64,000 nt of DNA from an uncultured Pelagibacteraceae bacterium (GTDB taxonomy: Bacteria; Pseudomonadota; Alphaproteobacteria; Pelagibacterales; Pelagibacteraceae), in NCBI GenBank assembly GCA_902592985.1, contig CACJGR010000002.1, positions 1 to 64,000 on the forward strand. Reading direction: 5' to 3'. Under the pieces are notes generated by a model. That model saw nothing but the letters and a program-made list of their open reading frames with translations, made no database searches and was not told the DNA's origin. Of the stretch, positions 49,697 through 51,471 are shown in pieces. The position numbers and the translations under genes were made by a program. The stretch's first letter is position 1; each line of letters starts with the position of its first letter.

Positions 49697-49769
49697 TTAA
49701 GATTTTTTGTTAAATAATATATATATTTTTTATCATTGTTTTATTAATTTACTTATAATATGTTTAATG

Positions 49770-49824
49770 CAGCGCCGATTTAAGTCGAATTGCGGGGCGC
49801 TATATAAAATCCTGCTAAAAAGAT
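49770..49824 (+). ncRNA. SAM-II riboswitch aptamer
   Basis: agcgcc GATTTAAGTCGAATTGCG gggcgct ATATAAAATCCTGCTAAAAAG: P1 49771-49776/49796-49801 plus conserved GAUUUAA, UUGC and GCUAAAAAG. Confidence 0.88.
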
Positions 49825-49835
49825 GTTTCTACATG

Positions 49836-49865
49836 AACCACCTCTTTAGCAGGTGGTTTTTTTTT
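49836..49865 (+). terminator. Intrinsic terminator of the SAM-II expression platform
   Basis: AACCACCT 49836-49843 / AGGTGGTT 49851-49858 then T-run; competing antiterminator CCTGCTAAA 49811-49819 / TTTAGCAGG 49845-49853. Confidence 0.88.
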
Positions 49866-49883
49866 GAATCATTTCTCATTTAA

Positions 49884-49940
49884 AGGCCGGGTATTTGAAC
49901 CGTATTGTGCACCTAGCAAAGCTAAAGCACTAAAAAGGAG
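49884..49940 (+). ncRNA. SAM-V riboswitch aptamer
   Basis: GGCCGGGTATTTGAACCGTATTGTGCACCTAGCAAAGCTAAAGCACTAAAAAGGAG; GGT/ACC stem, GTGC 49907-49910/GCAC 49927-49930 pseudoknot, CUAAAAAGGAG 3' end. Confidence 0.85.
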
Positions 49941-50004
49941 AAAAGAAGAGCTCTATTTATTTCCCTATGACCCACGAGCTCCTTTTCTCCATTAGTTTGG
50001 AGAA
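49937..50004 (+). promoter_or_regulatory. Candidate translational expression platform between the SAM-V aptamer and bhmT
   Basis: GGAGAAAAG 49937-49945/CTTTTCTCC 49982-49990 plus GAGCTC 49948-49953/GAGCTC 49976-49981; competing hairpin TTCTCC 49985-49990/GGAGAA 49999-50004 covers the SD. Confidence 0.65.
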
Positions 50005-50006
50005 AA

Positions 50007-51065
50007 ATGAAAAAAAAAAACTTAATTGAGAGACTAGATAAAGGTCCAGTGATATGTGCTGAAGGTTTCCTTTTTGAAATAGAAAAAAGAGGATATATGT
50101 CTTCAGGAGAGTTCGTTCCAATGGTTTCTTTGGAAAATCCAGGAGCATTGGAAAATTTGCACAGAGATTTTCAATATTCGGGTTCTGATATTGTCCAGGC
50201 ATTTACTTATAATGGACATAGAGAAAAAATGAGAGTTATCGGTAAGGAAGAACTATTAGAACCTCTTAATAGAGCAGCTTTAAAAATTGCAAAAAAAGTG
50301 GCAACTAGCCCATTAGGAAAAGAACAAAATTTAATGGCAGGAAACATTTCAAATTCAAATATTTGGAAACAAGGTGATAATAAAGCCCAATTAGAAGTTG
50401 AAAAAATGTTTCGTGAAATGGTGGGGTGGGCTGTTGATGAAGGTGCAGATATTTTAATTGGTGAAACTTTTTATTATGCAGAGGAAGCTTATACAGCTTT
50501 AAAAATAATGAAAGAAACAGGACTTCCATCTGTTATTACAATTGCTCCTTATGGTCAAAATATTATGAGAGATCAAGTTTCTATTCTCGATACTTGTAAA
50601 GAATTAGAGCAACGAGGTGGTGATGTAGTAGGGATGAATTGTCATCGAGGACCTAATACAATGCTGCCTTATCTCAAAGAAATTAGAAAAGCACTAAAAT
50701 GTCATGTAGCCGGTCTACCCATTAATTATCGAACGACAGAGGATAACCCTACTTTTTTTAACTTACCAGATCGTAATGGCTGTACTTGCCATACACCACA
50801 TGAAACGACATTTCCTACAGCATTAGATCCAATGCAATGCAATAGATATGAAATTAGGCAATTTGCAAAGGAAGCATTTGATATAGGTATAAATTATCTT
50901 GGAGTTTGTTGTGGAGCAAATCCAATGTTGATAAGAGAAGTTGCTGAAGCAGTGGGATTAAAAGTTCCTTCTAGCAAATATAGAGAAAATATGGAAAATC
51001 ATTATATGTTTGGGAAAAATAAAAGAATTCCAAAACATATAAAAGATTATAGAAATAAAGCATAA
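50007..51065 (+). CDS. bhmT: Betaine-homocysteine S-methyltransferase-like protein
   Basis: GPVICAEGFLFEIEKRGYMSSGEFVP; GGDVVGMNCHRGPNTMLP; YLGVCCGANPMLIREVAEAVG (zinc CC); SAM riboswitch upstream. Confidence 0.88.
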   Translation: MKKKNLIERLDKGPVICAEGFLFEIEKRGYMSSGEFVPMVSLENPGALENLHRDFQYSGSDIVQAFTYNGHREKMRVIGKEELLEPLNRAALKIAKKVATSPLGKEQNLMAGNISNSNIWKQGDNKAQLEVEKMFREMVGWAVDEGADILIGETFYYAEEAYTALKIMKETGLPSVITIAPYGQNIMRDQVSILDTCKELEQRGGDVVGMNCHRGPNTMLPYLKEIRKALKCHVAGLPINYRTTEDNPTFFNLPDRNGCTCHTPHETTFPTALDPMQCNRYEIRQFAKEAFDIGINYLGVCCGANPMLIREVAEAVGLKVPSSKYRENMENHYMFGKNKRIPKHIKDYRNKA

Positions 51066-51093: not shown

Positions 51094-51471
51094 ATGATTA
51101 AACAAATACTAAGCGATAAGGTAGAAGAATACATAAAAAATAACCCTAAATCTGTATTACTTGATGTAAGAACTGAAGAAGAATGGAATGTTGATGGAAA
51201 ACCAGATGGTGAGAAAATTTCATTAAAAACCTATTTTTTAACAATACAATTTGCTGACAAAACTTTTAATCAAAATTTTATTGAAGATTTCAAAAAACTA
51301 AATATTCAAAAAGACTATAAAATATTAACCATGTGTATGGGTGGTGTTAGATCCCAAGCTGCTGCAGAACTTTTAATAAAAGAAGGTTTTAATTGTGTAA
51401 ATATTTCAGATGGTTTTTTGGGTAATTCTGAAAATCCAGGTTGGAAAAATTCAGGTTTATCGAGTAAATAA
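51094..51471 (+). CDS. Rhodanese-domain protein
   Basis: VLLDVRTEEEWNVDG; TMCMGGVRSQAAAELL active-site loop. Confidence 0.9.
   Translation: MIKQILSDKVEEYIKNNPKSVLLDVRTEEEWNVDGKPDGEKISLKTYFLTIQFADKTFNQNFIEDFKKLNIQKDYKILTMCMGGVRSQAAAELLIKEGFNCVNISDGFLGNSENPGWKNSGLSSK

Follow-up and report, generated by a model that had tools for sequence, protein, structure and literature searches.

A tandem SAM-II/SAM-V leader of bhmT in Pelagibacteraceae and a candidate second kind of SAM-V expression platform built on a copied Shine-Dalgarno sequence

The bhmT locus and its leader

The window (the whole 64,000-nt stretch of DNA analyzed here, from contig CACJGR010000002.1 of an uncultured Pelagibacteraceae bacterium) comes from a genome of 1.14 Mb in 44 contigs. 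Its forward strand carries a putative bhmT gene, whose 352-aa product has a predicted homocysteine S-methyltransferase domain (PF02574, 5e-32) nearest to that of betaine-homocysteine S-methyltransferase (BHMT); the best PDB matches, 1umy (1e-43) and 1lt7, are both BHMT structures. Orthologs of this product are 75 to 92% identical, and the named genome records nearest by bhmT belong to Pelagibacteraceae. Directly after bhmT, on the same strand, lies a rhodanese-like ORF (51094-51471) that is possibly cotranscribed with it.

A sequence-only reading had proposed that a SAM-II aptamer, an intrinsic terminator, a SAM-V aptamer, and a bhmT-like ORF follow one another here. Rfam models, a terminator scan, and PF02574 bore out this order, which is that of a tandem leader preceding a methionine-cycle gene, along with the coordinates. 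The entire leader folded better than 199 of 200 shuffles. The features of the leader, including a second Shine-Dalgarno (SD) sequence and a strand complementary to both SD copies, are as follows:

49730-49759, + strand: promoter-like sequence (TTATCA, 18 nt, TATAAT; 10 of 12 matches)
49762-49839, + strand: SAM-II aptamer (span of the Rfam model RF00521)
49811-49819, + strand: CCTGCTAAA, SAM-II 3' strand and antiterminator strand
49835-49865, + strand: intrinsic terminator with T tract, containing TTTAGCAGG (49845-49853)
49880-49943, + strand: SAM-V aptamer (RF01826)
49937-49945, + strand: SD copy 1 (GGAGAAAAG), tail of SAM-V, pairing with 49982-49990
49948-49953, + strand: inner arm GAGCTC, 5' side of the apo hairpin, from folding
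49976-49981, + strand: inner arm GAGCTC, 3' side of the apo hairpin, from folding
49982-49990, + strand: anti-SD (CTTTTCTCC), complementary to SD copy 1 (9 nt) and SD 2 (8 nt)
49999-50006, + strand: SD 2 (GGAGAAAA), the bhmT Shine-Dalgarno sequence, directly before the ATG at 50007
50007-51065, + strand: bhmT, betaine-homocysteine S-methyltransferase

Promoter-like matches in this region are no more numerous than in shuffles, and the main argument for the one listed is its position just 5' of SAM-II. Weak Rfam matches of the leader to CyaR, PtaRNA1, and mir-3202 were far under gathering thresholds and were taken as chance.

SAM-II aptamer and transcription terminator

The two aptamers fared differently in the Rfam check that the sequence-only reading had called for. 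SAM-V scored 73.3 bits against RF01826 (gathering threshold, 41), while SAM-II, at 23.6 bits (E = 0.0024 in a 351-nt search), fell short of the gathering threshold of 36 for RF00521. This low score does not exclude membership in the SAM-II class, because the SAM-II of the bhmT leader of “Candidatus Pelagibacter ubique” HTCC1062, for which SAM binding has been reported (PMC5069961), escapes the same model, with no match listed at an E value of ≤0.5. All eight bases that contact the ligand in the HTCC1062 aptamer (U10, U11, A20, U21, U22, U46, A47, and A49; PMC11508383) are identical in the window, at positions 49779, 49780, 49789-49791, 49816, 49817, and 49819.

The 9-nt complementarity claimed between the SAM-II 3' strand and the terminator was confirmed, and covariation across 68 distinct leaders indicates that it is sound. 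In 60 of these, 8 or 9 of the 9 positions are paired; position 8 is C-G in 44 leaders and A-T in 23, and position 7 is G-C in 43 and T-A in 14. The terminator-like hairpin itself (49835-49859), with its T tract, was found once, where shuffles gave an expectation of 0.3. The transcriptional checkpoint proposed by the sequence-only reading thus gains from this covariation and from the terminator, and earlier work has already described it for leaders of this type (PMC9481103, PMC5069961). On the other hand, the SAM-II domain of HTCC1062 gave no response to SAM in SHAPE probing when the linker was part of the RNA (PMC11508383). This unresponsiveness in the longer RNA weakens the case for a transcriptional step, whose dependence on SAM is thus putative.

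A second SD and an anti-SD downstream of SAM-V

SAM-V is typically no more than ten nt away from the start codon, with its GGAG serving as the SD (PMC2704228, PMC6061858). The window leader departs from this placement, in a way that concerns the expression platform and leaves the aptamer unaffected: the GGAG (49937) lies 70 nt from the bhmT ATG, and the real SD starts 62 nt downstream of the GGAG. This distance, and the anti-SD and second SD in between, had been overlooked in the sequence-only reading. Its translational checkpoint is plausible in the OFF direction, but direct masking by SAM-V does not fit a real SD so far downstream, with a relay of anti-SD and SD copy in between. Two observations ruled out the SAM-V GGAG as the bhmT SD: it lies too far away, and a stop codon interrupts the bhmT frame 39 nt upstream of the ATG. 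Such an upstream in-frame stop is found in 26 of 33 short leaders of this distal type (defined below).

A scan of both strands of the whole window for exact 8-mers followed by their complement and then by a repeat returned ten triples. Nine consist of A and T alone, and only the GGAGAAAA triple has any G or C. The second hairpin, between SAM-V and bhmT, was also considered as a terminator and rejected; it has no T tract and was not picked up by the terminator scan.

The window's genome contains a further SAM-V (L002, G000:C39:2334-2397), of the direct type, upstream of a metY-like ORF.

Conservation and covariation of the triple

The bhmT orthologs of the genus, together with the named genome records, yielded 88 distinct leaders. 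By the pattern used, 33 are of the direct type (GGAG 7 to 14 nt before the ATG), 36 are of the distal type, and the rest are unclassed. The distal leaders comprise 33 short ones, with 68 to 80 nt from SD copy 1 to the ATG, and 3 long ones. In the long form (L107, L114, and L139), an ORF of about 44 codons runs from the SAM-V SD (GGAGAAAATGAGC) to the bhmT start.

The triple of SD copy, anti-SD, and SD (GGAGAAAAG, CTTTTCTCC, and GGAGAAAA in the window) is preserved across 33 distinct bhmT leaders, and SD copy 1 and the linker share about 11 to 14 paired bases in nearly all of the 33 short distal leaders. Pairs were counted in an alignment anchored at SD copy 1, the anti-SD, and SD 2, as a MAFFT alignment lost the register of these short strands. 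Over the 33 leaders, SD copy 1 and the anti-SD are paired in 97% of cells across 11 positions (67 to 78% in slid registers), and the anti-SD and SD 2 are paired in 95% of cells across 8 positions (56 to 85% in slid registers). The first four SD positions are nearly invariant and little informative. Position 7 shows a compensatory change through all three strands, as 20 leaders have A/T/A there and 7 have G/C/G, and position 11 of the first pairing occurs as A-T, G-C, T-A, and C-G in addition to wobbles.

When anti-SD strands were dealt at random among the 36 leaders, the observed pairing was reached in 0 of 2,000 trials for SD copy 1 and in 1 of 2,000 for SD 2. Permutation at the level of clades, set by eye, did as well in 93 of 40,320 arrangements for SD copy 1 and in 1,084 of 40,320 for SD 2, the latter a weak test. 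Shuffled linkers matched the SDs as well in 112 of 6,600 cases (SD copy 1) and 390 of 6,600 (SD 2), a control of only moderate strength because purine-rich SDs easily meet pyrimidine runs. The argument for pairing is therefore carried by the slide and deal-out tests and by the accessibility test described below. Comparison of the leaders thus establishes the elements, their conservation, and the covariation of both pairings. The pairing of SD copy 1 is strongly supported, and that of SD 2, taken alone, less strongly; the likeness of SD 2 to SD copy 1 could stem from its origin as a copy. As a conserved structure, the distal platform is well supported.

In many distal bhmT leaders, the loop of the hairpin between SD copy 1 and the anti-SD reads CCCTC or CCTCTT. 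In HTCC1062-like leaders this loop can pair with the tail of SD copy 1 (AAGAGG), perhaps forming a third competing helix.

The spacing of these leaders invites another explanation, in which SD copy 1 within SAM-V recruits the ribosome, initiation takes place at the bhmT ATG some 70 nt farther downstream, copy 1 is masked by SAM, and the hairpin does no more than bring the two sites together. The range of 68 to 80 nt in the 33 short leaders suits such a relay, and there is a precedent at a nearly equal distance in the Sinorhizobium meliloti metA SAM-II riboswitch, whose start lies 74 nt downstream (PMC9373788). That riboswitch resembles the window leader in the distance of about 70 nt from its SD to the true start codon downstream and in that SAM lowers translation; it differs in that recruitment at the riboswitch SD was proposed, with no anti-SD exchange, whereas the leader type of the window conserves a strand complementary to both SDs. 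The relay is unlikely, as a predicted helix of about 11 to 14 pairs with the anti-SD would lock copy 1 in the absence of SAM, exactly when loading would be needed. Moreover, bhmT is served by an SD directly before its ATG, the covariation of anti-SD and SD 2 is left unexplained, and in the metY leaders of a second genus, g4, the distance is mostly 54 to 58 nt.

Translational coupling to a short upstream ORF is quite unlikely as well. Here SAM-V would mask the SD (copy 1) of an ORF overlapping the bhmT start, and translation of this ORF would open the hairpin of anti-SD and SD 2, with bhmT following. HTCC1062 and some of its relatives do have an ATG 11 nt after the GGAG, in a frame that ends just past the bhmT ATG, and such a frame is also present in most g4 metY leaders (25 of the 33 leaders in the set that held them). 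However, 21 of the 33 bhmT leaders, that of the window included, offer SD copy 1 no start codon at a suitable spacing; the pairing is kept despite early stops in L182, L190, L197, and L198; and the strong helix of SD copy 1 and anti-SD would block the short ORF in the ON state. We rejected the upstream ORF as a conserved element of the platform, as it is missing in most bhmT leaders.

A predicted structural switch

Folding of the window RNA from SD copy 1 onward placed SD copy 1 on the anti-SD and left SD 2 open (predicted, -21.9 kcal/mol). After deletion of the first four bases of SD copy 1, to mimic their capture by a SAM-bound SAM-V, the minimum-energy fold was predicted to place the anti-SD on SD 2 (-19.4 kcal/mol), and deletion of two bases alone led to an equal loss of access to SD 2. 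These folds represent neither the SAM-V pseudoknot nor SAM, binding being imitated by the two-base deletion. Modeled at 20°C, removal of two G's of SD copy 1 lowered the predicted access of SD 2 in the window from 0.89 to 0.006; the mean over the 33 leaders fell from 0.44 to 0.04. The drop exceeded 0.25 in 21 of the 33 leaders but in only 7% of shuffled linkers; the predicted change was small in the other 12, mostly because SD 2 was already closed without SAM. The model thus predicts a flip of the downstream structure when two G's are withdrawn.

These values also bear on a proposal that the hairpin of SD copy 1 and anti-SD is a stability or processing element and that SAM-V has a weak effect, or none, on bhmT in distal leaders. 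The hairpin is strong by itself (mean energy of the duplex of SD copy 1 and linker, -17.8 kcal/mol), and it is retained without bhmT in one relic leader. We nevertheless regard this proposal as very unlikely, since it predicts neither the conservation of the pairing of anti-SD with SD 2 nor the poised balance of two folds, and since the SAM-V core keeps its full score in distal leaders.

The 3' end of SAM-V, SD bases included, is required for SAM binding (PMC6061858), from which we infer that the bound aptamer uses the G's of its tail. We favor as probable a model in which the tandem leader shuts bhmT off at two checkpoints, one through SAM-II and one through SAM-V, with SAM-V acting via anti-SD exchange. 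With SAM scarce, CCTGCTAAA would pair with TTTAGCAGG within the terminator, and transcription would continue; SAM captured by SAM-II would take the CCTGCTAAA strand and allow the terminator to form. In a transcript that has escaped termination while SAM is scarce, the SAM-V tail GGAGAAAAG would sit on the anti-SD CTTTTCTCC and leave the real SD (49999-50006) open. Once SAM is bound, SAM-V would hold the GG of the tail, and the freed anti-SD would pair with the real SD and stop bhmT translation. SAM is presumably the trigger of this switch in the cell, and its direction is presumably OFF. Under sulfur limitation, bhmT is among the most induced transcripts (PMC5069961).

Reported KD values for the bhmT SAM-V are 120 µM (PMC5069961, quoting Poiata) and, for a 52-nt RNA, 0.5 µM (PMC6061858). 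We considered this gap as a sign of competition by the downstream strand and dropped the idea, as the comparison would require the construct ends behind the 120-µM value.

Distribution and evolution of the platform

Of 397 genomes of the family, 70, spread over three genera, carry the signature CTAAAAAGGAGA..TTCTY..GGAGA, and a reversed control pattern occurs in none. The signature lies mostly before metY in genus g4, with some genomes having it before bhmT, and before bhmT in genus g9. In the other genera the strands differ from those of the window while the pairing is kept, as in GGAGAAGATGAAC, GTTCATTCTTCTCC, and GGAGAAAA. In the window's own genus, SAM-V before metY belongs to the direct type and lacks the anti-SD. 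In the g4 metY leaders L168, L170, L182, and L189-L212, a conserved ORF of 15 codons (MNETIRETVRGKING) begins from the distal SD. The stop codon of this ORF overlaps the metY start, a hint of translational coupling.

Direct and distal leaders are interleaved on the BhmT tree, where well-supported branches force at least 8 changes per label, suggesting leader exchange by recombination or repeated gain and loss. One 94%-complete genome (leader L157, G236:C7:29000-30600) has SAM-II, SAM-V, and a 14-pair hairpin of SD copy 1 and anti-SD but neither a second SD nor bhmT. This orphan may be either a relic after the loss of bhmT or a free-standing SAM-sensing RNA; as a relic, it supports the view of the leader as a separable unit. 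A direct-masking riboswitch could become a relayed one by a simple evolutionary step, the gain of a copied SD and an anti-SD, and both forms are present within one genus.

Genomes labeled SAR86 or Gammaproteobacteria carry bhmT genes that are about 75% identical (L124, L125, L131, L132, L135-L138, L140, and L141). Their leaders are SAM-II-like only, with no recognizable SAM-V, which probably reflects gene transfer with a different leader.

Relation to known riboswitches and implications

The tandem leader of bhmT, a methionine-synthesis gene in SAR11, has been known since 2009, when Table 1 of Meyer et al. (PMC2704228) listed a “SAM-II/SAM-V riboswitch” before bhmT of HTCC1062. A review from 2022 puts the number of such tandems at 149 and assigns termination to SAM-II and control of the ribosome-binding site to SAM-V (PMC9481103). 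The window leader shares its order, gene, and logic of terminator and antiterminator with the HTCC1062 tandem (PMC2704228; Poiata 2009; PMC11508383), and the HTCC1062 leader also carries the triple of SD copy, anti-SD, and SD. In contrast, Meyer et al. 2009 and Feng et al. 2024 took the SAM-V GGAG as the regulated SD. Judged from primer positions, the 177-nt “full-length” construct of Feng et al. ends with ..GGAGAAAAGAGGCCTATG, an ATG 55 nt before the annotated bhmT start, and the anti-SD and SD 2 of HTCC1062 lie beyond its end. The annotated start agrees with the intergenic border in the 2009 table (PMC2704228). Compared with Meyer et al. 2009 and Feng et al. 2024, the distal platform may be new.

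Direct-type SAM-V, as before metY (PMC6061858), shares its aptamer and its conserved CUAAAAAGG(AG) tail with the window leader. There, however, the GGAG 7 to 14 nt before the ATG is the SD and no anti-SD follows, whereas in the window the tail would be a decoy copy.

In anti-anti-SD riboswitches, such as the Escherichia coli thiM TPP riboswitch, the ligand takes an alternative partner and the anti-SD is released. Release of the anti-SD in this manner would be alike in the window leader; the difference is that the alternative partner is an SD that ends a pseudoknot aptamer and matches the real SD exactly across 8 nt.

Overall, we consider it reasonably likely that SAM-V has a second kind of expression platform, in which the SD of the aptamer is a decoy competing with the real SD for one anti-SD, that the standard tandem example, the bhmT leader, belongs to this kind, and that at least the 2024 construct ended upstream of this platform. 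If so, constructs that stop at the upstream ATG would miss the part that decides translation, and the description of SAM-V as masking its own SD would need a second category.
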